From positions 1-32,710 of IMG/VR virus record IMGVR_UViG_3300027298_000002: a stretch of 32,710 nucleotides of DNA, one strand, 5' to 3'. This document shows, piece by piece, positions 7,953 to 32,500 of this stretch (within the stretch, counting starts at the first letter, position 1; every line of letters begins with the position of its first letter). Source of the DNA: a virus. Position numbers and translations under genes: made by a program. The notes beneath the pieces were generated by a model. It was given only the letters and a program-made list of their open reading frames with translations, was not told the origin of the DNA and made no database searches.

Positions 7953-10496
7953 TTAGTCGCTTGATTTACAGAAAGATACTGCATGTCTAACAGCTACATC
8001 TAAAGTTTGTAGAGCAACAATTCGTACCCCACCTGATGTGCTAAGAGCATACGGATCAACTGTTATATCAAGACCGCCATAAAGACCAATTAATAAGTCT
8101 GCAAAGTTACCAAAGTAGTAATCACCTGAAGTAACTTGGTTTGATCTAACAACATCATATCCATTAATGTTTCCATCTGGACCGACTATCATTTGACCAA
8201 ATCCACTTGCTTTATCAACAGTTTTTAGGTTGCCCCAATCTGCAGGTCTAGCTATATATCTTAATGAACCTGTTAAAGCGTTGTCATTTGATACAGCAGA
8301 TTCCATTGCAACTAGCTCTGCAAATGTAGGCACAGCAGCAGCAAATGTTGTAGTGTTAATACCTGAAGTATTAGCAATACCAGTAGGTTGGCCACTTGAA
8401 CCTGAACCAGTTAAAGCACCTAAGTCAATTGCAGTAGCAATAGAAGCACTTAAGTCATTTCTTATTAAGTTTTCAACATCCAAAGAAGACTGCTGAAGCA
8501 TTAATCTTGAAGCGTCTGTAAACGCGCCAATTACTTTTGGAGACATTGTTACTGAACCTGTAGTAAATTCACTTTCAGCAGCAGCAGCGCCTTCAGTTGC
8601 AATCCAAGCAGCAGATGAAGCACCTGTTTTCTTTGGTATTACAACATTTCCTTGCAATCCGCGTAAGGTGGTTGCTCCGGCTTGCATAACGCTTGAAGAG
8701 TTTCTTAATACATCAATAAAATCACCAGCTCTATAATCTTCAGATATAAGAGTTGAATCATCGGATGTGTTTAAGTCTCTTTTGCCCCATGCCCCTAAAA
8801 CTTCTGCAGGAAGCATAATGCCCTGAGCTGTTTTACCATACTGTCTAGCAGCTTCATCTGAACATTCAAATTCAAATTTAGCAGCTTCTTGAGCTTTTCT
8901 ATCTGAAGGATTTGCTAGTGCATTAATTGCTCTAACTAAAGAGAATTCTCTTACTTCTTCTTTGCTCATACCGATTTCAGCAGTATCTAAAGGTTTGTCA
9001 TTGCAAATTTCGTTTAACAATGCGCCTCTAAATTCTTCTACTGAAACACCGTTTCTAATAGCGTCATCAGCTAAATCTCTTTTGTTATGCTTAACAGCTA
9101 AATCAATGATTTCTTTCGAATTTCTTTTGAATTCAGCTTTAGCTTCCTCAAGAGTCTGGCTTCTGACTTCGTCAAGATTAATATCTTGTTTTTTTTCTTC
9201 TGTCATAATAATACCTTTTTTTAAGTTAGCAGAACGACCAACTCCGACAAGCCTTGACTGGTCAGCTGGCACAGAAACACTGGATACCTCCATTGGGGTC
9301 CAGGCTGCGCGGTAGTAGTCTTCATCGCCGTTGTTATCTCGTTCTAATTTATTTACTCTATACCCAACACTTATATTCATTCGAATACCGTCTTGAATAT
9401 CCTGAAAAACTTCTTGAGCAAGAGCTGATCTTCCCAATCTTACTACTGCTATTGTCTTTTTAGCAGTCTCATCAAGTTTAAATTCTTCTATAACTCCAAT
9501 CTGTTTAGTCATATCATGATCCAACAAAAACGGAGCCCTACCTGAAGATATAAATTGCATATCTATATCTTTTTGCTCGTGGCTTAAAACTTCTAAGCCA
9601 AATGAGCGTTCAACCGGTTCTTCAGAGCTTACGCCAATTCGAACAAGTCTTTTTTCTTCATCAATATAAGATGCTTTTGATAAATCAATTGTTCTATAAT
9701 TTATAGAAAAATCAATATCGCGGTTATCTTCGTCTTGATCTGAAGATGCTTCTAATTCAATAGCATCATCTTCATGTTCAACATCCTCATGCTTCTGAAA
9801 TTCAACAACTACAGTGTTGTCAGTCTCAGTAACATTAAGGATATGTCTATCTTCTTTATTCATAGATTTCTCCTCTTTATTTTTTGTTGATAAAGGATGC
9901 CCACTAGGTAATAAGTCTGTATCATGCTTACCTCCTTTAAATTTGCCATTTCTTAAGACAAATAAATAAGAGTTAACCCGAGCCGCTGCCCATTGTTCAG
10001 GACTACTCACCGATGGTCTTACTGAAGCTGGATTGCTTTTATATGCACCAATCCCTCTTTCATAAACTTTTGATAACGTTGCTACACTTGTTCTTTTTGA
10101 TTTAGTGTCCCCAACTTTATCGTTGTGTTCTTTAACTTTATTTTTAATCATTGTCAGAGCTTTACCTGTTAAAGCCCTTTCTTCTTCATTTTTCATTTGG
10201 TTAACTAATTTTTTTGACCAGCTAAAACCTGCATCTCCTCCCCAAAGACCCCATGCAATTCTGCCATTACTTGGGAATCCTTTTTCACCTGGTCGAAAAC
10301 CTTGTGCTTTTTTATCTACTTCATGCCTGCTAAAAAAGCTGTACATTCTTTTGATTGTACTATCTGATAGGTTATCACCATTAACAATTTGGTTTGCCCT
10401 TGCAAGGCCCACTCGTGTTCCGCCTCTGCCAAATTCTTTACGCCAATCTAATGCTCTTTGAGCGTCTTCTTTCATTCCTTTAGTCGGTATCGTCAT
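7953..10496 (-). CDS. Fused head maturation protease and major capsid protein (HK97 fold), with N-terminal extra domains
   Basis: 847 aa. I chose the ATG at 10496 because AAGGAGGG lies 7 bases before it, inside the end of the portal gene; an earlier TTG has no site. Residues 1-211 hold two modules seen in other large phage proteins: GRGGTRVGLARANQI...RHEVDKKAQGFRPGEKGFPS (about 20-75) and RPSVSSPEQWAAARVNSYL (160-178). Residues of about 212-430 are an HK97/S78-type prohead protease: candidate catalytic His327 in FLLDHD and Ser376 in NISVGY, then PMEVSSVSVPAD. Residues 431-847 are the major capsid protein: a helical, charged delta-type region (435-550), then an HK97-fold core with VVIPKKTGASSAAWIATEG and a C-terminus ending RHAVSFCKSSD. 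The protease should cleave scaffold and delta regions during maturation. Internal ribosome sites precede residues 212 and 431, so separate products are likely. Confidence 0.88.
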   Translation of the reverse strand: MTIPTKGMKEDAQRALDWRKEFGRGGTRVGLARANQIVNGDNLSDSTIKRMYSFFSRHEVDKKAQGFRPGEKGFPSNGRIAWGLWGGDAGFSWSKKLVNQMKNEEERALTGKALTMIKNKVKEHNDKVGDTKSKRTSVATLSKVYERGIGAYKSNPASVRPSVSSPEQWAAARVNSYLFVLRNGKFKGGKHDTDLLPSGHPLSTKNKEEKSMNKEDRHILNVTETDNTVVVEFQKHEDVEHEDDAIELEASSDQDEDNRDIDFSINYRTIDLSKASYIDEEKRLVRIGVSSEEPVERSFGLEVLSHEQKDIDMQFISSGRAPFLLDHDMTKQIGVIEEFKLDETAKKTIAVVRLGRSALAQEVFQDIQDGIRMNISVGYRVNKLERDNNGDEDYYRAAWTPMEVSSVSVPADQSRLVGVGRSANLKKGIIMTEEKKQDINLDEVRSQTLEEAKAEFKRNSKEIIDLAVKHNKRDLADDAIRNGVSVEEFRGALLNEICNDKPLDTAEIGMSKEEVREFSLVRAINALANPSDRKAQEAAKFEFECSDEAARQYGKTAQGIMLPAEVLGAWGKRDLNTSDDSTLISEDYRAGDFIDVLRNSSSVMQAGATTLRGLQGNVVIPKKTGASSAAWIATEGAAAAESEFTTGSVTMSPKVIGAFTDASRLMLQQSSLDVENLIRNDLSASIATAIDLGALTGSGSSGQPTGIANTSGINTTTFAAAVPTFAELVAMESAVSNDNALTGSLRYIARPADWGNLKTVDKASGFGQMIVGPDGNINGYDVVRSNQVTSGDYYFGNFADLLIGLYGGLDITVDPYALSTSGGVRIVALQTLDVAVRHAVSFCKSSD
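9204..9217 (-). promoter_or_regulatory. Internal ribosome site and start for the major capsid module
   Basis: AAAGG, seven bases, then an in-frame ATG (residue 431; MTEEKKQDINLDEV). Starting here gives a 417-aa protein with the usual delta domain plus capsid core, close to the normal size of an unfused HK97-type capsid protein. It offers a way to make far more capsid subunit than protease. Confidence 0.6.
9861..9875 (-). promoter_or_regulatory. Internal ribosome site and start for the protease module
   Basis: GAGGAG, six bases, then an in-frame ATG (residue 212 of the capsid fusion; MNKEDRHILNVTET). This is one of the best Shine-Dalgarno matches in the window, although it lies inside an open reading frame. 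The start would give a protein beginning exactly at the protease module. Confidence 0.65.
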
Positions 10497-11991
10497 TATT
10501 TGACCCTCCTTTAATTTCGGGTTCAATTGGCATTTTTATTCCAAATGGCTGGAATGCTGTTTTAATCCCGTACTGCTCAGCAAGTTTTTGTTCTCTTTCG
10601 TGCTGTTCGTATAGCTCTTCAACATCACGCCCGTAATTAGATTGAACATCTTGATATGTTACAAGGCCGGCTTGCATACCACTTATTGATGCATTCATTT
10701 CTTTTTGTGGGTCTACCCACTGGAATGATCTGCCAATAAAAATTGTATTATTTGCAAATTTTTCATATTTACCCATTGGTAATGGCCCGCTCGCTTCGTC
10801 TCCCATCATAATAGCGCCACTTGAAATAGCCATTTCAAGCCACTTTTCAAACACAGGTCGCATAAAGTGATCAACTACAAATCTTTGATATAGCTTATAC
10901 ATTTCTCGGTCTTCTAAAGCGCCTGCTCTTAAAGAACTATAATTTACAGAGCTTAAATCATTTGTTAATGCGTGATATGAAATATTTAATCCTGAAGCTA
11001 TTCCTCTTAATACCTGGGTTGTAAACGGGCCAAAAGCTGTAGCCGGATGATCGGGATCAAAACTTTTAAAATCCATGCCAGCTGGTAACTGCTCAAAGCT
11101 GCCAGCGGATGCTTCCATAATAGGAGTGTACTCATCTTCGTAACCTTCGCCTATATAGCCATCACCGTCCGGGCTTGTAAAGAATCCCATTTTAGCTGCT
11201 GAAACGCGAGCTGCTGTAATTTCAGCTTCCATATAGCCATTAAGCATTTTTATCTGAGGCATGGCAGAAGCAGTCATAGGGACTCCTCTGGTCTGCTCTG
11301 CTCGTGTCGGCATGTAAGCGTGTATGATTTCCTCAGCTGGAACTCGTATGTGCTCTTTAGGCGACTGATATGTATTATCATACGGATGATTTTTAAATAA
11401 ATAATATGCAACAGGCTTATCAAACTTGTCTACTTCCACGCCCATTTTAATTTTATTTTTAGTTTTGGAGTTAACTCCGTTTTTCTGCTCATCTAAATGA
11501 TCAGCTTCAAGAAATTGAATTTTATATTTGTATTTAGTATCAGTTGGCGTAGCATGTCTTATTAAAACTTCCCCGTCTCGCATTAACGCTTCTACAAATA
11601 ATTTTTGACAATCTAAAAATGATTGTCTGCCATTAAGCGTGCAATTACCCATTTTTGCCCAATTTTTAAATTCACGCTCAATAGTTTGATTGCCTAATAT
11701 GTCTAAATCGCCTTTAGGGTTTCTTGCTTTAACACTTAGCCTAATACCATTTGCTCCAATGATATTGCTTATCATTAAATTTAAGTACCTGGTAACATAC
11801 GAATCATTTCTTGCTAAATCTCTACTGCGATCTCTTAAAATTCTTAATTGATCTTTTATTTCAGAATCAGCTGAAGTATTTGCAGCTTGAAAGTCCGCAA
11901 ATAGTCTGCCGGTATTAGCACCTGCATATCTACGAGTAGAAGATACTTTTTTTAATTTTTTTTTGTTTGTGAATCTGTTATACCAGGCCAT
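10480..11991 (-). CDS. Portal protein (lambda gpB family)
   Basis: 503 aa. The Arg-rich N-terminus leads into RRYAGANTGRLFADF and DQLRILRDRSRDLARND, the characteristic start of lambda-type portals, followed by YLNLMISNIIGANGIRL. The core contains FLEADHLDEQKNG, AEEIIHAYMPTRAEQTRGVP and the stem/wing stretch SVNYSSLRAGALEDREM, all typical of Phage_portal_2 (gpB). It forms the dodecameric ring through which terminase pumps DNA. It follows the gpW-like gene by two bases and overlaps the protease/capsid start by 17 bases, the classic W-B-C-E order. Its 3' end holds the AAGGAGGG site of the capsid gene. Confidence 0.93.
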   Translation of the reverse strand: MAWYNRFTNKKKLKKVSSTRRYAGANTGRLFADFQAANTSADSEIKDQLRILRDRSRDLARNDSYVTRYLNLMISNIIGANGIRLSVKARNPKGDLDILGNQTIEREFKNWAKMGNCTLNGRQSFLDCQKLFVEALMRDGEVLIRHATPTDTKYKYKIQFLEADHLDEQKNGVNSKTKNKIKMGVEVDKFDKPVAYYLFKNHPYDNTYQSPKEHIRVPAEEIIHAYMPTRAEQTRGVPMTASAMPQIKMLNGYMEAEITAARVSAAKMGFFTSPDGDGYIGEGYEDEYTPIMEASAGSFEQLPAGMDFKSFDPDHPATAFGPFTTQVLRGIASGLNISYHALTNDLSSVNYSSLRAGALEDREMYKLYQRFVVDHFMRPVFEKWLEMAISSGAIMMGDEASGPLPMGKYEKFANNTIFIGRSFQWVDPQKEMNASISGMQAGLVTYQDVQSNYGRDVEELYEQHEREQKLAEQYGIKTAFQPFGIKMPIEPEIKGGSNNDDTD

Positions 11992-11993
11992 AG

Positions 11994-12584
11994 TTAAAAC
12001 CTTGCCTTTACTGAATTACCAGAGGCTGTTTTATTTTTAATTCGTGCTTTTTTAATTTCTTTTAGATATTCCGCTTTATATCTGTCTCTAAAAGTCATGA
12101 TCTCATCGATAGTCATTCTTGATAACGACCTTCCAGCTATAGACATAGAAGACTGATCAATTGATGCTCTACCTTGTATTACAGCCTCTAACGCATCAAG
12201 CACTTTTTTTGCGTGTGTTCTTACGTCGGCATTAGTATCAGCAAAATTAGGATTTAAAAGCATGATTCCATTATCTACAATCGACCTAGCGCTATCGCTC
12301 GTCCGGGTGATGTATGCATTCCATTTATAAGTATGTGCATTGTAATTTGCCGTAGTAGCAGCAGGCACTTCAATATAATAAGTGCTATCTGCTTCTGTTG
12401 CATTAATTGTAAATTGATGGTTGCCACCGCCTCCTGAATCACAATGAAATTCATAAGATAGCGAATAAAAACCGACCGGGTAATCAATAGCGAGGTCGTC
12501 TTTTTTCCACGCCCAGGTATCACCTACGACCAACTCAAACGGTTCGTTTGATGCGTAGTCCGCTCTATTAAAAATATTAGCCAT
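11994..12584 (-). CDS. gpW-like head-tail joining protein with an extra N-terminal beta domain
   Basis: 196 aa in two parts. Residues of about 1-118 are beta-rich (LVVGDTWAWKKDDLAIDYPV, FTINATEADSTYYIEVPAA, THTYKWN-like strands), similar in character to small phage Ig-like or connector domains. Residues of about 122-196 match lambda gpW: HAKKVLDALEAVIQGRAS, SMSIAGRSLSRMTIDEIM, FRDRYKAEYLKEIKKARI. The GRSLSRM..DE core is the hallmark of that 68-aa protein, which seals the portal after packaging. Position between terminase-side genes and the portal agrees. A promoter-like sequence lies just upstream, leaving a leader of fewer than 20 bases with no clear Shine-Dalgarno site. Confidence 0.78.
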   Translation of the reverse strand: MANIFNRADYASNEPFELVVGDTWAWKKDDLAIDYPVGFYSLSYEFHCDSGGGGNHQFTINATEADSTYYIEVPAATTANYNAHTYKWNAYITRTSDSARSIVDNGIMLLNPNFADTNADVRTHAKKVLDALEAVIQGRASIDQSSMSIAGRSLSRMTIDEIMTFRDRYKAEYLKEIKKARIKNKTASGNSVKARF

Positions 12585-12645: not shown

Positions 12646-13110
12646 TTAAAATTTATTTTTATGTAATTTTATATAATTTATATTACTTTTAGCTAGTAAT
12701 TCTGTTGAGGTTTTAAAACTTTTAACCCACTTATCTTTAGGCGGTTTCGGCGAATACGTTACCACTTCTTTTATGCCTACTTGAATAATACCTTTTGCAC
12801 ATTCATGGCACACCTCTAAACCATACACAAATAATGTTGACCCTTCTAAGGATATCCCATTTAGTGTGGCATGGTATATACAATTCATTTCAGCATGAAT
12901 AATATATTGTTTTTTTAATTCTGAGTTTTCATATATGTTGAGTGTATCATTAAACTTTTTAGGAAATCCGTTATAGCCCTGTGATAATACTTGACCTTTT
13001 GAACCTATAGCAACAGCACCAACTTTAACTGAAGGGTCTTTAGACCAGCTAGCAAACTTTTTTGCTAATTCAATATATTTTAAATTCCATGCATCAGAAT
13101 AATTAGACAT
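12646..13110 (-). CDS. Deoxycytidylate (dCMP) deaminase
   Basis: 154 aa with the zinc deaminase signature: HAEMN gives His72 and the proton-shuttling Glu74, and VCHECAKG gives Cys101 and Cys104 as the other zinc ligands. The N-terminus (KDPSVKVGAVAIG, SQGYNGFP) is typical of dCMP rather than cytidine deaminases. The enzyme converts dCMP to dUMP and is usually controlled by dCTP/dTTP. It overlaps the thymidylate-synthase homologue by 8 bases, so both are co-translated. If that neighbour acts on dCMP (see its Asp178), the two enzymes compete for or partition one pool, as T4 cd and gp42 do; otherwise this gene simply supplies dUMP. Confidence 0.92.
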   Translation of the reverse strand: MSNYSDAWNLKYIELAKKFASWSKDPSVKVGAVAIGSKGQVLSQGYNGFPKKFNDTLNIYENSELKKQYIIHAEMNCIYHATLNGISLEGSTLFVYGLEVCHECAKGIIQVGIKEVVTYSPKPPKDKWVKSFKTSTELLAKSNINYIKLHKNKF

Positions 13111-13897
13111 TAACTTTTAATTTTTGTACTGCATTATGTTTATAACTTGATATTAAGAAATCATTATTATAAATATTATCAATATTAGCTTGATCATTTA
13201 ATTTTACATTTGGTGGGTTAAATATTTCAAGCGTATCAATAGTTTTTGCAAACTGCAAATGATTATTATAGATATGCGCGTCGCCTAAATTAAATATTAG
13301 TTTATGAGGAGTTATATCTAATTCATTAGATAAAACTAACATTAATAATGCATGAAACAAGACATCCGAAGGAAGTCCCACCATTACATCAGACGAGCGC
13401 ATATTGACTAGTAAATTTAAATGATTCTCGTGAATTAACAATTGAAAACCGTGAAAACATGGTAATAAAGCCATTTTATTAGCATCAATTGGATTCCAGG
13501 CTGTTACATACAACCTTCTTGATTGAGGATTCTTTTTAGCTTCGCTAATTACATTTCGTAACTGATCTATTTTAAACCCCGAATAATTTCTCCACTGATA
13601 GCCATATATAGGCCCAAGGTTTCCATCATCTTCAGCCCAGGCATCCCAATAGTTACAACCTAAACTTTTAAAGTCATTAACATTTGTATGACCTCTTAAG
13701 AAGGCTAATAGCTCGCCAATAACGCCTTTATAAAATATTTTTCTATGCGTTAATAAAGGAAAGCCTGCTTTGAGATTTAATTCTAAGTTAGCCCCAAATA
13801 TACTTTTTGTACCAACGCCTGTTCTTTCTTTATCTCTATTAACGCCTTGAGTTAATACTTTGTTAACTAGATTGAAATATTGCTTTTCATTTTCCAT
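13103..13897 (-). CDS. Thymidylate-synthase-family enzyme with dCMP-type active site (candidate dCMP hydroxymethylase/methylase)
   Basis: 264 aa, clearly the ThyA fold and numbered one ahead of E. coli ThyA. RTG at 25-27, Glu62 in GELLAFLRG, the SRR at 126-128, nucleophile Cys147 in LLPCFHGFQ, Arg167 and Asp170 in MRSSDVMVG, and His208/Tyr210 in GDAHIY all align. The residue matching E. coli Asn177, which selects dUMP, is Asp178 (LPSDV, codon 13364..13366). Asp is found there in T4 gp42 dCMP hydroxymethylase, and Asn-to-Asp in bacterial ThyA is known to shift preference to dCMP. His after the catalytic Cys is also replaced (Phe148). I infer a dCMP C5-hydroxymethylase or methylase; ordinary dTMP synthesis remains possible. 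It overlaps both operon neighbours. Confidence 0.85.
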   Translation of the reverse strand: MENEKQYFNLVNKVLTQGVNRDKERTGVGTKSIFGANLELNLKAGFPLLTHRKIFYKGVIGELLAFLRGHTNVNDFKSLGCNYWDAWAEDDGNLGPIYGYQWRNYSGFKIDQLRNVISEAKKNPQSRRLYVTAWNPIDANKMALLPCFHGFQLLIHENHLNLLVNMRSSDVMVGLPSDVLFHALLMLVLSNELDITPHKLIFNLGDAHIYNNHLQFAKTIDTLEIFNPPNVKLNDQANIDNIYNNDFLISSYKHNAVQKLKVNV

Positions 13898-14153
13898 TTT
13901 GTTTTTTTAAGTAAGCTCCATAAAAACTAGCATAATTAATTAAATCTAATACTGAATCATAGCTAGATTCAAAGTTAGGTTTCTTTTCGTCAAACGCTAT
14001 CGATTCTAAACGCTTTACTTTTGTTTGAATCATTTGCAAATATGAATGATGCCCATACGGAAAATATTCTTGCTTAGCTTCAGAATCTTTTGAGTTGTAA
14101 TCTTCGGCTTTTTGTTTTTGTAAAGCTGCCGCTTCGCTTAATACTGAATGCAT
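13887..14153 (-). CDS. Nmad1/DUF1599-like protein
   Basis: 88 aa, all-alpha in appearance. The KAEDYNSKD turn near residue 16, YGHHSYLQMIQTKVKRLES in the middle and SYDSVLDLINYASFYGAYL at the end fit, from memory, the DUF1599 family renamed nucleotide-modification-associated domain 1. That family recurs beside thymidylate-synthase-type and pyrophosphohydrolase genes in phages, which is exactly its setting here. The biochemical role is not established. AAGGAG seven bases before the ATG gives a strong start, and its end overlaps the TS-like gene by 11 bases. Confidence 0.65.
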   Translation of the reverse strand: MHSVLSEAAALQKQKAEDYNSKDSEAKQEYFPYGHHSYLQMIQTKVKRLESIAFDEKKPNFESSYDSVLDLINYASFYGAYLKKQNGK

Positions 14154-14156
14154 GTT

Positions 14157-14558
14157 TTACTCCTTATTTAAAAAATCTAATTTACCTACATTATCAAAAT
14201 GTTGAGGGGCTTGCCAGCCTTCTGGTTTTACAAGATCAGGCAATCCTAAAGGATTTGGCCTGCTATCTTTAACCCCTATTTCTTTTTGCATGTTTGCATG
14301 ATGCACACGCTTCCATGCTGTTTTAATATCTACATCAAACGCATCAAGAGAGCCTAGCGCAATTACAATGATATCTATAAAAGCATCAACAACTTCGTCG
14401 GGCTCTTCGTTGTTGATAGCTTCAAATAACTCTGTTAACTCTTCTTGAATAAACTTAGCTCTGAATTCAAGATAATGTAATTTTTCATTATCAGATGCTT
14501 TGCTAATAAACCGGTATATTTTGTAATACCGGTTTAATTTTTTAATATCACCTAGCAT
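14157..14558 (-). CDS. MazG-like (all-alpha) nucleotide pyrophosphohydrolase
   Basis: 133 aa. The signature EExxE...ExxD is present: Glu39, Glu40 and Glu43 in IQEELTELFEA, then Glu55 and Asp58 in DEVVDAFIDIIV with Asp62 following. VHHANMQKE is the helix that closes the site in many phage MazG-like proteins. Members hydrolyse (d)NTPs to (d)NMPs plus pyrophosphate with Mg2+; T4 gp56 (another all-alpha NTPase) does this to dCTP and dUTP. In this operon it could supply dCMP to the TS-like enzyme and keep unmodified dCTP low (inference). The extra C-terminal 40 residues, with LPDLVKPEGWQAPQH, are common in phage versions. The ATG shares a base with the previous stop. Confidence 0.78.
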   Translation of the reverse strand: MLGDIKKLNRYYKIYRFISKASDNEKLHYLEFRAKFIQEELTELFEAINNEEPDEVVDAFIDIIVIALGSLDAFDVDIKTAWKRVHHANMQKEIGVKDSRPNPLGLPDLVKPEGWQAPQHFDNVGKLDFLNKE

Positions 14559-14713
14559 TACTTGCTAAATATTTGATCACAAGTGATTTCTGTGATTTTT
14601 GGTTTTTGTAATTCGGCTAATTCAGCTTCATGCTTTTTAATTGCTTCAATGTTATTGTGAAGCTTTGCAATTATTAAATGTACTTTAATTGTTTCAATTT
14701 TAGATACTTGCAT
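14558..14713 (-). CDS. Small helical protein, unknown
   Basis: 51 aa, MQVSKIETIKVHLIIAKLHN then a heptad-like helix (IKKHEAELAELQK). Both ends are TAATG overlaps: its ATG with the preceding stop at 14713 and its TAA with the MazG-like ATG at 14558. That tight coupling is the best evidence that it is real. It may form a short coiled coil; no function can be assigned. Confidence 0.7.
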   Translation of the reverse strand: MQVSKIETIKVHLIIAKLHNNIEAIKKHEAELAELQKPKITEITCDQIFSK

Positions 14714-14907
14714 TATCTAACCGTTTTATTACTTATGATAACATAAGGCTTTTGAGTTAAGGTTTTAGCCGCTTTCATTACAAGGCTGTGGAATTTATCA
14801 TCAGCTTGTATTGGTGAAATATTTTCAGCTAAAATTTGCTTGTGGGCAATGCCGCCTTCCATATCTTTGTATAGTTTATCAAATACTGCTTTTACTTCTT
14901 TTGTCAT
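14713..14907 (-). CDS. Small protein, first gene of the nucleotide operon, unknown
   Basis: 64 aa (MTKEVKAVFDKLYKDMEGG...). An AGGAG site precedes the ATG and an extended -10 promoter lies about 40 bases upstream, making it the first gene of the unit that leads to the nucleotide-metabolism genes. The sequence is alpha-helical in look, with a basic C-terminus (KPYVIISNKTVR). I do not recognise the family. Confidence 0.65.
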   Translation of the reverse strand: MTKEVKAVFDKLYKDMEGGIAHKQILAENISPIQADDKFHSLVMKAAKTLTQKPYVIISNKTVR

Positions 14908-14989: not shown

Positions 14990-16816
14990 TTATTTCCAAT
15001 CATTTACCCAGTTTCGCCTTTGATTAGCTCTAAATGAATTGTTTTTAACATTTTTTGTATGCTCCGCTTGCGTTGATTTGTTTTTATTAATTAATTGCTC
15101 TAAGCGGTCATAATTCGGTTGCAGTATATACAAAGCGGCTAATCCATAAACAAATGTATCAAGCGCTTCATTACGTGTTGTCTTTTTAACCCATTCAAAC
15201 TTTTTGCCGCCTTTAAAGTATTTAATAACTCTTTTTTCAGATGTAAGCTGTCTAAAGTACTCTTCATCAACTGTAGCTGGAAAGTGTATTGTTTTTATTT
15301 CAGATTTTAATCGAGTATAAATTGCTTCTTTTGCAGTATCAGAACCAACAGGGTAAAGTATATGTCTTGACCGGCCAATAAAAGATGGTCGCCCTGCTAC
15401 TGGCTTATTGCTTTGTGACTGACCTTTAATAGCAAATACTTTTCTATGTACACGTTTTGAAGTAAACGCATACACTTGTTGTGTATGATGTCCGCCGGAG
15501 TCAACACAAGCGCATGCAATTCTAAGAGGTTTATCATCTTCTCTTTTAAATGTTGTTCCTAAATATGTATCTAAATCTTTCCAAACAACATTACTTGAAG
15601 GGTCTCCAAAAAATACGCGATAGTCTAAAACCCAAGCTTCGTTGTTTTTACCCCAACCTATTGTTTGAGCTTCGAGTCTATCCCCCTGTACATCAACACC
15701 GGCTGTAATTAATAAAACATTGTTTGGAATATTTGAATAGTCGTACTCTTCTCGTTGATTCATTAATGAGCTATGTTCAATACTTTCACCCGGATCATCA
15801 AACGTTTTACCTAAAGCAGTATTGACCCATGTCTTTAGCATTTCAGGCTGACTCTTAACAGCATAAAAATCAACAGCCATATCTTTCCATGTTCTCCACG
15901 GTGAATATAATTCAGATATATGAAATCCTGCTGTTTTCTTTGTTTCTTGCGTTGCAACCCATTTGCCTCGAGATAACATCCACATCTTTTTAGTTTCCGG
16001 GATAATACATTCGCAATGCTTGCAAGTGTATTCTGCTGTTTCAGGTTTTTTAGATTCCCAATGTATTTGTTCCCAATCTAGCACTTGATACTCATTGCAT
16101 TCAGGGCATGGAACATTATAATATCTTTGGTCAGACTGCTCAAACGCAATTTCAATTCTTGATAAGCCTTTAATTGTTGGGGTTGAAGTAATAAACACTT
16201 TTCGATTCCAAAACGTTGTGGTACGTTTTACCGCTAAGTTGATCGGGTCTCCTTCTGCTCCAGCGCTAGGGTCATAACGATCTATTTCATCGCAAAGCAA
16301 AATTCGTATTGGTCTTGATGCTAATCCTGCTGCTGAGTTTGACCCGACGATATTTATATTACCTCCCGGGAACTGCTTAGATAAAACTGTGTTAGAGCTA
16401 TCTTTACTTCTTGGGTCTTTAACTTTAGCTCTTAACCTATCACAATCACGAATCATATTGGCAAGCCTGTCTTTACTCCAAGCTTGAGCCATTTGCAATG
16501 TTGGTTGTAATACTAAGCACGGGCTAGGGTCTTGGTCAATATAATAAGCCACTATATTGTTTAATATTTCAGTTGCGCCAACCTGTGCGCTTTTCATAAA
16601 AACAATAGTATGAATTTTAGGATCATTAACAGCATCCATAATACCTTTTTGATATGGTGCTCGTGATGTTTTCCACATACCTGCTTCCGCTGATGACTCG
16701 GGCGAAAGCGTTCTATACTGATCAGCCCATTCTGAAACAGTTAAATCAGGCGGAGGGGTCCACGTCTTTTTTGTCGATAAGAGTATTCTCTCTATATTCT
16801 CTTGGTATTGGGTCAT
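14990..16816 (-). CDS. Terminase large subunit (lambda gpA family)
   Basis: 608 aa. The N-terminal ATPase has Walker A KSAQVGAT (75-82), Walker B RILLCDE with Asp176/Glu177, and the coupling STP at 211-213. The zinc-ribbon-like pair CPEC...CKHC (237-268) is usual in the GpA family. The nuclease half begins near GVDVQGDRLEAQ, whose Asp is a candidate metal ligand, and continues to NEALDTFVYGLAAL. The enzyme cuts concatemers and pumps DNA through the portal. The GpA class normally cuts at specific cos sites. The ATG overlaps the small subunit by 71 bases, with GAGG nine bases upstream, so translation is coupled. Confidence 0.94.
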   Translation of the reverse strand: MTQYQENIERILLSTKKTWTPPPDLTVSEWADQYRTLSPESSAEAGMWKTSRAPYQKGIMDAVNDPKIHTIVFMKSAQVGATEILNNIVAYYIDQDPSPCLVLQPTLQMAQAWSKDRLANMIRDCDRLRAKVKDPRSKDSSNTVLSKQFPGGNINIVGSNSAAGLASRPIRILLCDEIDRYDPSAGAEGDPINLAVKRTTTFWNRKVFITSTPTIKGLSRIEIAFEQSDQRYYNVPCPECNEYQVLDWEQIHWESKKPETAEYTCKHCECIIPETKKMWMLSRGKWVATQETKKTAGFHISELYSPWRTWKDMAVDFYAVKSQPEMLKTWVNTALGKTFDDPGESIEHSSLMNQREEYDYSNIPNNVLLITAGVDVQGDRLEAQTIGWGKNNEAWVLDYRVFFGDPSSNVVWKDLDTYLGTTFKREDDKPLRIACACVDSGGHHTQQVYAFTSKRVHRKVFAIKGQSQSNKPVAGRPSFIGRSRHILYPVGSDTAKEAIYTRLKSEIKTIHFPATVDEEYFRQLTSEKRVIKYFKGGKKFEWVKKTTRNEALDTFVYGLAALYILQPNYDRLEQLINKNKSTQAEHTKNVKNNSFRANQRRNWVNDWK

Positions 16817-26566: not shown

Positions 26567-29500
26567 CTATATTGTTGTTATTATAAAAGCTAAGAGTTCA
26601 TTATATCTCACCCCAAGCCTAGTTTGTTCCACACCATCATCATCTTCCCAAGTCTGTGATATAAACATACCATAGTCACCTGCATCTAATCCTTCTGTTA
26701 TAAACGCATCTCGTAAATCTTGAGCCATGACTCCAAAATGATATCTAGCTGTTTCATTAGAATCAGGATTATCATCTTTTCGTGCCACTGAATCTTGCCA
26801 TTTAAATCTTCTTATTAAACCTTTACATGCTATAGCAACTCTTTGCTCTGCATCTGTTAAGGCCTGTATATCTTGTTTTTCGTTTTTATCAGAAGTTTGT
26901 ATAGTGCCATTGGTTGCATAGATATCATCAAACCTTGCACCTGAGTAACCAAGATCTATAGCGTTATCTCTATACGCTCCAGTACCACTACAGGGTGCTA
27001 TTCTTGCAGTTTGTATGTAATCCCAAAAAGCTAGACCGACTTTACCAGTAGTTGTGCCATTGGCTATATACAACTCATTAGCATTATTTTGCGGTTCTTG
27101 TATTCCTAAAACTCCGCCAACTGAGCCATCTTTTCGTAGTTCTAATAAAGTACCGTCGCTAGTAAGTCTATTTACATATAAAGGTGGGCTGCCATTTCTT
27201 GTTATAGTTGTTGACCCACTCTGTCTCGTTCTAAAACCTGCTACAGTTTCCCAATTAGTTTCTGCTGTAGCACCAACCAACAAGTTACCAGAACTATCTA
27301 ACCTCATTTTTTCAGAACCATCTATTTCATAAACAATTCTAGTGCCGCCCTGCGTGTTGCCAGCATCAGCTTGAAGTGTTAAATGTCCTCCATTGCCAGA
27401 TATTTCTGAATATCCACCACCATTGTCTGTAATTCTAAATCTTGGATTGTTTGCGGCTAATTCTAATTCTCTACTAGGATTAGTACCAATTCCAACAAGG
27501 CCTTCAGGATCAACAACAATTCTATTTGTAGCACTTGTTTTTAATCTAATTGAAGATGAATCAACTCCTGCGTCAATATTTATATCCGTATCTTCAGCAG
27601 ACTTAATTAGCAAAGTATCATCGGTAGCAGTTGCATCGCCTATGGTATGACTTCCAGTTAAAAGATTTCCTGTTGCTTTTATATCTCCTGCAACATGTAG
27701 CTTCTCGCTTGGCGAAGTTGTGCCAATTCCAACATTACCACCATAAGTAAACCTAGCGGTCTCGCTTCCCGCTGTTTCAGACCTAATAATCAAATCATTA
27801 GCATCAACGCCAATAGAATGTTGATTACCACCAGAGGCTTGATACATTGTTTTTGATGATAGGTAGAGGTTTTTGAATTTATACGCAGTAGCACCTAAGT
27901 CTTGTGTTCCATTTGATCCAGAGCCACTAGCTATTGCTGGGATAATTGTTCCGTTACCTCTAAAACGCAAACCTGTATCTGTCGTGCCGTTATGTGAAAT
28001 AAATAATTCACCACCTTTAGTACCAATACTTCCAACTGTTGAATCATTTTTACGGAACTGTACAATATCTCCATCAGACGATGTTCTATTAAATCTTGCT
28101 GTTTCTGAACCTGAAACTGTAGCTGCTATTTTTCCACTTGATGCAACCTGAAAACCAACAGAGTCACTTCCTATAGCAGTCTTACCCACCAAAAGATTAC
28201 CTGATGAGTCTATTCTCATGCGTTCTGAGCCATTGGTTCTCAAAGCCATATAATCACTTCCATGATTGTAATGAATTTGCCCACCATCATTTAATCCTGC
28301 GGTACTAGATGCTGTATCAGTAAATACTAATCTTCCATTTCCTGTTGCTGAAGATTTAATAGTTATACCATCGTTACCAGTACCACCTACAACAAGATTA
28401 TCTGCTTGACCCCAATAGCTTGATGGATTGGTTATTCCAATTCCAACGTTTCCTGCAAATGTAGCGTTGCCGCTGTTAAATGAATGATTGCCAGATGTAT
28501 CTATTACATATCTAAATGCATTAGCACTTGCGTCCAAAACTGCAAAAGCCGCTCCATAAGAACCAACTTGGTATTCTTTGCTTTGGTCACTTTCAATTAA
28601 TCTTAGGGTTGGTGTGGTGTTAGTTACAGTAAGTTCTGTACTTGCAACACCACTAACATTAGCTGTTCCTGAAAGGTGAAGGTTTTTGAATCTATGTGTG
28701 CTTTGACCTAAATCTACCAAATTATCTACTTCTCCACCGCCTGAAGTTGCAGGTACTATTCTTTCTGTGCTTCCATCAATAAACTTAAGACCTGCACCAT
28801 TACCTGACGAAGTATCACCTACAATAAATAATGAACCATTATTAGTACCAATACTTCCAACTGTTGAGTTATCTTTACGGAAAAGTGCTATATCTCCATC
28901 ACTTGAAGTTCTATTTAAAAGAAGTGCAACATTACCGCTTACTGTTGACCTTACCCCTTGTGTTCCTGAAATAGAAACACCTACTGTGCTTGTACTTGTT
29001 GATGTTTTAGAAATTAACAGATTACCTGTAGCATCAAACCTTCCATACTCATCTTCTGATGTTCCGTTATGTCCTGCAAACTTTAAAACACCATTGCTTG
29101 TAGCGTTTCTTGAAGTTAGGGTTGTAGTTCCTGCACTATGTTTTAGTTCAGCTAGTTTGCCTGAACTGTTTACATCTTCTAATCTTAATATTGGTGGAAC
29201 ACTGCCTATAGAAGCACCTGTGATTGCTAAGTCTGCACCTGTAGTACCATAAGTTAATGTAGTTTCTGCATTTAAAGTACCTGCTGTTGCAGTACCAGTA
29301 ATAATTCTATTGTCTGCATTGTTGTTTATAGTAAAGCTGTTTGCATCTACATAAGCCTTTACAGATTGCTGTGTTGGTAATAGCGTTGCAGAATCAGAGG
29401 ACATATCATCTTGATCTACAAAGCCTGTTATGGTTATCGTGCCATCTGATAGGCTTCCGAAGTTTGCTGTTCCTGCTAGATAAAGGTCTTTGAATCTTGC

Positions 29501-32500
29501 GTTTGAAGCACCTAAATCTATTGCATTATCTCTTACAGTTTGATTTGTTGTATTAATTGGCGATATTGAGTCTATGCCATTATTAAAATATATACCTGTA
29601 TCATCAGTACCAAGATACATATCGCCAAAGTTCATAGTGCCAATACTTCCAACTATTCCACCATCTTTATAGAACCTAAGTATTTCTCCATCTAGACCAG
29701 TTTGGTTAAGAATTAACACTGGGTCAGCATTATCAACACCTTGTTTAGCTATTTGTGTAAACCCGTTTGAGCTAACAGAAAAGCCACCACCTGATGTATT
29801 GTTAAGCAAAGTTGTGTCAGTAGTTGCCACTAACAGATTACCTGATGAGTCTATTCTTGCTTTTTCTGAGCCACCAGATTGAAACAACATAATGCCTGTA
29901 TTTCTAGCGTTTAATGTAAGTGAAGAACTACTTGTGGTTATAGTGCCATGTATTGCTGAGCCTGATTTAATATCTAAAGCATTTGCATTAGCTGTTCCTG
30001 CTAGATAAAGGTCTTTGAATTTATAACTAGATGAGCCAATATCTATAGTATTATTTGCTCTTATTTCTGAACCAAAATTATTTCCAACTGGTTCAATTCT
30101 ATTTGTATTTAAGTAAAGCCCTGAATAACTACCTGCTGAACCTGATAAAATTGCAGTTGCAGAATTGTAAGCACCAATACTTCCAACTGTTGAGCCGTCT
30201 TTATAAAAGTCTATTAGTGAGCCATCTGAGCTAAGTCTATTTAAAACTAAATTAGTATTACCTGAACGTATGCTTGTGATTCTACCACTTGCTCTATTTT
30301 CAATACCTACAGTACCTAGTGTTGTATTGGTCTTACCCACCAACAGATTGCCTGATGAGTCTATTCTCATGCGTTCTGTGCCATTGGTACTGAAACTTAA
30401 GTTGTTGTCGGCTGGTTTAAACATTCCAGTAGTATTATTTTCCGTAAATGTATAAGCAGGTCTAGTTGCTTTACCTCTAAACATATGAATTTGTGGGTCA
30501 TCAGTGCCGTTATCTGTAAAAGAACCCACACCCGTGACAGTAACATTTCCTGCTGAGTCTATTCTCATTCTTTCAGAACTTCCATCTGCATCTACAAAAG
30601 CTAAACCATCAGAACCATTAAGGGTATCAATATAAAAACGACCTGTACCACCTTCAAAAAGTGCTATTCTTGATTTTCCTGAAGATGCGTTAATAGCTAA
30701 CTGGTTGCTAGTACCATTGATTACAAATTTTCCATAAGCACTTGGATTTGTTAGTCCAATTCCAACGTTTCCTGATGAGTCTATTCTCATGCGTTCTGCA
30801 TAATTTGTACTGAGGGTTAGGGCTGTGCCATTAGAGCCTATTCTTACTTGGTCTGCTGTGGACGAGCTATTTGCAAAACAAACAAAAGAACTGGTAAGGG
30901 TAGATTTAAACTGAGCCGCCATTGATGTACTACCTGCATTTACTTCTAATTTTCTGCTTGGACTATCAGTCCCAATTCCAACATTTCCTGAACTAACAAC
31001 TGTAACTTGACCTGTTGTTGAAGAAAGTCCGTTAGGTCTCAAGCGAACAGTTCCACCGCTTCCTGATGTACTTAAAGTTGTATTTGTATCAGAAGAAGTA
31101 AAATGTGTGTCTGCTGTAATTGTACCAACAACGTGCAAAGCGGTACTTGGAGAACTTGTGCCTATTCCAACCCCTGTAGTGTTATATCTAACTCTTTCAC
31201 TTCCATCTATTTCAAAGGCTATTCTGCTACCACCTTGTGTATTACCAGGATCAGCTTTAAAAGTAAAATGACCACCGCTGCCAGAAACCTCAGAATAACC
31301 ACCCTCAATATCTGTTAATCGTATATCAGGAGCAGAACTAGCAATTTCTAGCTCTCTATTTGGGTTCGTTGTGCCAATACCTAAAGACTCAGCACTAGCA
31401 TCCCAGAATAAAGCTTGGGTTGAGCCTGTATCGTCATAGAATGAGATATCGCCTGTAGCATGGTCTACTTCTAATGCTTTTGTACCACTTCTTTTTATAA
31501 ATAAATCAGCATTTGAGAAGTTAATATCATTTCTTGAAAAACCTGATGCAATATCAAAAGATACTGAACCTGATATAGTTCTTATATGCGATGCTCTTGA
31601 TGAACCTGAATTTACATCAAAGAAAGAATCTAAAGAGTTACCACCTGTAGTAAATTTAAAACGATTTGTAACACTGTCATCGTCAAATACAATATTAATA
31701 TCTGAAGAACCGCTATCAACAGTTAAACCATCAGCAGTAACTGTTCCTGTTACGTCTAAATTTCTGCCAACTGAAACATCTCTTACAGCAGTATAATCGC
31801 CATCTAAATCAAAAGTATGTTTTGCAGTTTGTCCGCTATTCTCAAAAGTTAAAGTGTTTGGTGTAGTTCTATAATAAAGTCTGAAGTTAGGATTAGATTC
31901 TGTGTCTCCAAATTCAAGACCAAATGGTCCTGCAGTTCCTGTAAATTTAACCTGTGTACCACCTGATGAAAGTGTGATGTTGCCTGTAGTTGCTATAGCA
32001 CCTGTTACATTTAAAGGATGCGAAAAGTTAAAGCTATCGTTAGTTGTGTTCCAAGTTAAGGTAGCATCTTGGGTAGCACTTACAGCATCTTGAATAGTAA
32101 TACCTGCACCATTTGCTGAAGCAGATGAATCACCCGTTGAATAGTTTAGGGTAATGTTTTTGTCTTTTACGTTTAGATCATCTGTGTTTACGCTTGTGGT
32201 AGTGCCTTGAACTGTTAGGTTTCCTTGTATAACTATGTTGTTATTGAAGGTTTTATTACCTGCTATAGATTGAACACCTGTTGTTCTTACAACTGTAGAA
32301 TCAAGAGATAAACTTCCTGTTGTAGTTATTGTAGTAGGAGAAGCTGTAATACCATTAGAAGCAGTAATGCTAGTAACTGTACCAGTACCAGCACCAGTTC
32401 CTGTAGATGATTGTTGTACGCCATATTCAACTTGATAACCTGAACCAGCATCACTATCAGTCCAAACATTATTTGTTATTGTTGGAGTAACAGTCAACCT

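Follow-up and report, generated by a model that had tools for sequence, protein, structure and literature searches.

A thymidylate synthase homologue with a predicted dCMP-type active site within a probable cytosine-modification gene cassette of a small marine siphovirus

A four-gene cassette between the terminase and head-tail joining genes

The window, by which we mean the whole stretch of DNA analysed here, is a linear IMG/VR virus contig of 32,710 bases; its left end falls within a tail gene encoding 927 aa or more and the contig is possibly incomplete, so the gene absences reported below are of limited weight. Its source is a small marine siphovirus related to the CRP-822-type roseophages. 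We judged this likeness on TerL, portal, capsid and the order of the packaging and head genes: the nearest cultured relatives by TerL are roseophages CRP-811, CRP-821 and CRP-406 (members of the CRP-822-type group, PMC12629253), with ~52% identity in this protein and 47-48% in the portal, and they have their packaging/head gene order in common with the window. An 857-aa ORF (7953-10526) combines a prohead-protease-like (Peptidase_S78) region and a major capsid domain in one frame, the capsid match being split into two pieces in several relatives. A 1976-aa tail protein (26567-32497) carries a C-terminal Peptidase_S74 intramolecular chaperone domain.

Exactly between the TerL and head-tail joining genes, in the window as in its cassette-carrying relatives, sit four minus-strand genes that overlap or nearly abut one another and encode, in operon order, a MazG-like protein, an Nmad1-like protein, a ThyA homologue and a dCMP deaminase (Table 1). 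CRP-811, CRP-821 and CRP-406, in contrast, are without the cassette, and TerL directly adjoins the head-tail joining gene. The GC content of the window is ~31-38%. In TerL and portal the cassette carriers have ~33-36% GC as compared to ~50% in the cassette-free roseophages, which suggests that the carriers have a different, low-GC host; as a signature of deamination this comparison was dropped, since host and ancestry confound it. A promoter scan of the cassette returned fewer matches than were obtained in shuffled sequences.

Table 1. The cassette and its borders in the window
Feature	Position	Strand	Remarks
Terminase large subunit (TerL, gpA type)	14990..16816	-	upstream cassette border
Variable pair of small ORFs (51 and 64 aa) in the MazG-TerL interval	14558..14907	-	in some relatives only
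MazG/PRA-PH-like nucleotide pyrophosphohydrolase, 133 aa	14157..14558	-	PF01503, E=4.3e-12
Nmad1/DUF1599-like protein, 88 aa	13887..14153	-	overlaps ThyA start by 11 nt
ThyA homologue (predicted dCMP 5-methylase), 264 aa	13103..13897	-	PF00303, E=2.3e-77
dCMP deaminase, 154 aa	12646..13110	-	PF00383, E=2.9e-19; overlaps ThyA stop by 8 nt
Head-tail joining protein	11994..12584	-	downstream cassette border; adjoins TerL in cassette-free roseophages

The MazG-like protein is presumed to be the dCTP-removing enzyme, in a role that would resemble that of T4 gp56. The match of its 88-aa neighbour to Nmad1/DUF1599 is weak (16.9 bits against a Pfam cut-off of 25); the identity is backed by PHROG 18404, by higher-scoring sister proteins and by the MazG-Nmad1 fusion of phage DLP4 (E=4e-19). 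The small protein is a stand-alone version of the C-terminal half of this fusion, which is found in phages of the Xp12 group (DLP4, L291:4705-5478), and the fusion suggests by analogy that the Nmad1 protein may work together with the pyrophosphohydrolase. No solved structural relative of the Nmad1 protein was found. A preliminary description of the locus had drawn a parallel between the Nmad1-like protein and T4 gp42, which is wrong: it is the ThyA homologue that is the gp42 counterpart. The three neighbours which that description had listed (MazG-like, Nmad1/DUF1599-like and dCMP deaminase) are all there, the deaminase gene lying just outside the interval, 13103-14558, that it had assigned to the set.

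As claimed earlier for a second ThyA, no further TS homologue was found in the window, nor was any ThyX; the same holds for seven related contigs (all of these sequences are possibly incomplete), in which, as in the window, there was also no C5 DNA methylase. DHFR was found neither in the window, which may be incomplete, nor in its relatives, and no phage dNMP kinase was recognised.

Active site of the ThyA homologue and its predicted product

The catalytic residues Cys147, Arg167, Asp170, His208 and Tyr210 are in place in the ThyA homologue at the positions previously claimed; the nucleophile Cys147 is surrounded by LLPCFH, and the C-terminal tail of TS is kept, ending in KVNV. Asp178 (codon GAT, 13364-13366) aligns with Asn177 of E. 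coli ThyA, as the preliminary description had it, with the ORFs where it had placed them, and also with Asp179 of T4 gp42. While the alignment to E. coli ThyA, described as gap-free, is so locally, there is a gap of 2-3 residues upstream; and while the Asp change that had been singled out is real, three other conserved positions are altered as well, which had been missed: His147 to Phe, Gln165 to Met and Phe176 to Ser (E. coli numbering). The AlphaFold model of the protein (pLDDT 90.4) has the TS fold, with TM ~0.93 to E. coli ThyA crystal structures. The window enzyme has the fold, the nucleophile, the phosphate-binding Arg and the tail in common with canonical E. coli ThyA, and differs from it in Asp for Asn177, Phe for His147 and Met for Gln165.

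Homologues of the cassette ThyA occur at 81-100% identity in many IMG/VR contigs and at 47-61% in others. All 25 distinct cassette ThyAs of the phage group have Asp at the selector position, Leu three residues before the catalytic Cys (Cys-3), Phe directly after it (Cys+1) and a full-length tail, and their pairwise dN/dS values of 0.08-0.15 indicate purifying selection. Given Asp in 25/25 homologues and a dN/dS of ~0.1, the substitution is not a quirk of sequencing or assembly. The nearest TS homologues from cultured phages have ~40% identity, and five of them, from Geobacillus E2, Sinorhizobium ort11, Rhizobium X3_15, Pseudomonas Y10 and ct76p945, were rejected as functional guides because they are plain Asn-type enzymes. 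Scanning bacterial genomes yielded TSs at only ~40% identity and no close homologue of the window ThyA. A quick tree of TS sequences places the Asp-type viral enzymes, those of the window clade and of L179, L185, L038, L043 and L058, together with an SH-aLRT of 94 and apart from the Asn-type phage and bacterial TSs.

The MetaGPA study (eLife 2021) found that phage TSs from modified contigs mostly have Asp177, that position 147 ranks beside it among the sites that best discriminate, and that such contigs tend to carry TS, PF01503 and PF00383 together (PMC8670742). Both the rule for Asp177 and its connection with modification of phage DNA have thus been published before (PMC8670742), and the window is a further case: it shares Asp177, the altered residue 147 and the company of PF01503 and PF00383, and differs in having no carbamoyltransferase, in a product predicted to be methylated, and in belonging to a defined phage group with a defined integration slot. 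Judging from the sequence, dCMP is very probably the substrate of the window ThyA, and the prediction of a dCMP-type active site within a cytosine-modification gene set is strongly supported, also by the gp42-like hydroxymethylases that fill this slot in sister phages. Ordinary auxiliary nucleotide metabolism, that is, a TS that uses dUMP and is assisted by dUTPase-like and dCMP deaminase proteins, would agree with the fold and with most of the catalytic residues being TS-like, and it is how the same genes of CRP-822-type phages have been interpreted, the deaminase and pyrophosphohydrolase genes of some members being read as dTMP supply (PMC12629253). The invariant Asp at the dUMP/dCMP selector, the Phe replacing His147 in 25/25 homologues and the fact that dCMP hydroxymethylases take the place of ThyA in sister phages (see below) render this explanation highly improbable.

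As to the product, the signature of dCMP hydroxymethylases consists of an Asp/Glu at Cys-3, a Ser/Thr two positions ahead of the catalytic Tyr (Tyr-2) and the absence of the C-terminal tail; in T4 gp42, which is without the TS tail, Asp145 activates the attacking water and the D145N variant yields no product (PMC6400193). In the cassette ThyAs the Asp/Glu at Cys-3 is absent, with Leu in 25/25. The Ser/Thr at Tyr-2 is absent in the window enzyme, which has Pro there (Pro in 23/25 cassette ThyAs, Ser in 2/25), and the tail is present in its 264 aa, the length being at least 250 aa in 25/25. With Leu at Cys-3, Pro at the position of Ser94 and a complete tail, a TS-type hydride transfer, and hence 5-methyl-dCMP, is to be expected. 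We consider 5-methyl-dCMP the probable product of the window ThyA, a prediction made uncertain by Phe148, which differs from both the Pro of the Xp12-group enzymes and the Thr of T4. Where the preliminary description had left the choice between 5-hydroxymethyl- and 5-methyl-dCMP, the methyl product is the more probable one, as the signature is absent and the TS tail kept, in which the enzyme resembles a 5-methyl-dCMP synthase.

That the window ThyA is nevertheless a dCMP hydroxymethylase, giving hydroxymethylated cytosine (hm5C) in the DNA as in T4, strikes us as very unlikely. Asp178, Met166 and a residue other than His after the catalytic Cys are shared in kind with gp42, and true gp42-like enzymes are found in the same slot of sister phages; the Cys-3 Asp that the window enzyme replaces with Leu is, however, essential in T4 (no product with D145N, PMC6400193), and the Pro for Ser at Tyr-2, the complete tail and the lack of tailoring genes all speak against it.

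Exchange of the ThyA slot in sister phages

Elsewhere in the phage group, in contigs with TerL 75-95% identical to that of the window, the ThyA slot holds a gp42-like protein of ~218 aa, the neighbours (MazG, Nmad1 and deaminase) being unchanged. Such gp42 counterparts were found in sister phages L171, L178, L180, L181, L183 and others, the L178 protein (L178:3314-3970) matching T4 dCMP hydroxymethylase with E=7e-61. The slot proteins bear the full published hydroxymethylase signature: Asp at the cytosine selector (15/15), Asp at Cys-3 (15/15), Ser at Tyr-2 (14/15) and no tail, with a length of 235 aa or less (15/15). Tailoring genes follow the deaminase in 15/15 gp42-type cassettes with readable flanks and in 0/25 ThyA-type cassettes (Fisher p=2.5e-11, with shared ancestry ignored); in the latter (n=25) the deaminase and the head-tail joining gene are separated by 51-69 nt. 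That these cassettes have no tailoring genes agrees with a methyl product, a methyl group providing no point of attachment for further modification. Mapped on the TerL tree, the type of enzyme in the slot has switched at least four times. L171/L209 (IMGVR_UViG_3300046168_000004), with TerL 95% identical to that of the window, has a gp42-type cassette and is the one such contig nested in the ThyA clade, although this contig ends within its cassette and misassembly is possible. In the literature searched we found no description of a cassette in which ThyA-type and gp42-type enzymes replace each other and tailoring genes accompany the gp42 type.

The gp42-type cassettes have tailoring genes of two kinds, a gene for a SAM-dependent methyltransferase-like protein or a set, mostly without known relatives, that includes one for a PLP-fold protein. 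The former (Methyltransf_23) lies beside the deaminase in L178 (4096-4863), L180 (4346-5083), L202, L205, L206 and L207, and its product might alkylate the hydroxymethyl group. The latter, found behind the hydroxymethylase cassettes of L181 (4601-7527), L203 (4416-8259), L211 and L254, comprises a protein of ~320 aa that bears a GDSHS motif (PHROG 13881), the PLP-fold (PALP/threonine dehydratase-like) protein and a ~370-aa protein for which no Pfam, PHROG or PDB relative was found; L203 adds a 295-aa ORF without an assigned role. The predicted structure of tailoring protein L181c has a pLDDT of 54.6, and no PDB relative of it was found by sequence. We regard the L181-type set as a candidate pathway for an undescribed hypermodification of hydroxymethylcytosine.

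Taken as a whole, the group may have a fixed cassette for dCTP removal and deamination with an exchangeable slot, filled either by a dCMP methylase (5-methylcytosine DNA and nothing further) or by a hydroxymethylase that always comes with tailoring genes (new hypermodified cytosines), and with at least four switches of base chemistry, presumably in step with host restriction systems; we lean slightly towards this generalisation.

A proposed route to 5-methylcytosine and its known counterparts

Going by protein sequence and gene order, the cassette comes closest to the operon of the Xp12 group (Bosavirus), represented in our comparison by DLP4 and AXL1 as stand-ins for Xp12 and Bosa, rather than to that of T4. 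In DLP4/AXL1 a fused MazG-Nmad1 gene is followed by genes for an Asp-type TS with a tail, for dCMP deaminase and for DHFR. All four cassette proteins of the window align to their DLP4/AXL1 counterparts; gene order, the four protein families, Asp177, the TS tail and the lack of an Asp at Cys-3 are common to both. The window differs in its separate MazG and Nmad1 genes, in having no linked DHFR, and in being a small siphovirus with the cassette within the packaging/head module; its ThyA shares only 29% identity with the DLP4 TS, is without the Xp12-group insertion and has Phe, not Pro, after the catalytic Cys. Xp12 DNA contains 5-methylcytosine in place of all cytosine (PMC7653180, PMC8543423), and AXL1 DNA is resistant at most cytosine-containing restriction sites (PMC9206674). 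The set had initially been called T4-like: its connection with cytosine modification is strongly supported, and it is DLP4/AXL1 that the operon matches. With T4 gp42 the window ThyA has in common the Asp at the cytosine-selecting position and the MRS motif, and gp56 and cd are paralleled by the dCTPase-like protein and the dCMP deaminase; it differs from gp42 in having no equivalents of Asp145 and Ser94, in keeping the TS tail and in the absence of a glycosyltransferase.

We propose, with a probability of roughly 0.7, that the cassette serves cytosine modification, leading from dCMP through 5-methyl-dCMP to 5-methylcytosine in the phage DNA, with a hydroxymethylase in the same slot of the sister phages. 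The MazG-like and Nmad1-like proteins would clear the nucleotide pool of dCTP, producing dCMP. The Asp-type ThyA would bind dCMP via Asp178, Cys147 would attack C6, methylenetetrahydrofolate would provide the one-carbon unit, and the reaction would end by hydride transfer to give 5-methyl-dCMP, because the enzyme keeps the TS tail and is without the water-activating Asp of hydroxymethylases. Host kinases would then produce 5-methyl-dCTP, which the host polymerase would insert in place of cytosine, and the dCMP deaminase would balance the pool towards dTMP, starting from dCMP and perhaps directly from 5-methyl-dCMP. In the sister phages a gp42-type dCMP hydroxymethylase in the ThyA slot would act with genes that could decorate the hydroxymethyl group. 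As far as can be predicted from these genes, virion DNA rather likely contains 5-methylcytosine. Against this explanation stands the absence of a DHFR gene: folate is oxidised in the methylase reaction, and the Xp12-group phages have a DHFR gene of their own, whereas with none in the window or its relatives the host enzyme must suffice. The lack of a recognised phage dNMP kinase and the low identity to the DLP4 TS also count against it.

A route from dCMP via 5-methyl-dCMP to dTMP, in addition or as an alternative to DNA modification, is plausible here because titles in the reference list of PMC12088426 name, for cells infected with Xp12, a 5-methyl-dCTP deaminase induced by the phage and 'a new thymidylate biosynthesis'. 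In its exclusive form, a supply of thymidylate to an AT-rich phage that spares dUMP, with little or no 5-methylcytosine in the DNA, this precedent would be joined by the 8-nt overlap of the ThyA and deaminase genes and by the low GC content of the window. We find this form unlikely: the slot is interchangeable with a dCMP hydroxymethylase, whose product cannot give dTMP, with the rest of the cassette unchanged, and Xp12, from which the precedent comes, has 5-methylcytosine for all cytosine in its DNA all the same.

Cytosine modification, the reading that we prefer, revises a published view that assigns related genes to auxiliary nucleotide metabolism (PMC12629253). Natural dCMP methylases are represented biochemically mainly by Xp12, and the window adds a compact, conserved predicted family; the presence of ThyA-type and hydroxymethylase-type enzymes in one slot offers a matched control for residue-to-product rules. 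The findings further suggest that exchange at a single slot is how marine phages alter their cytosine chemistry, and the tailoring genes that accompany the hydroxymethylase are candidates for cytosine hypermodifications not described so far. Finally, the cassette-free CRP-821 encodes a C5 DNA cytosine methylase (L196:7910-8983), another route to methylated cytosine.
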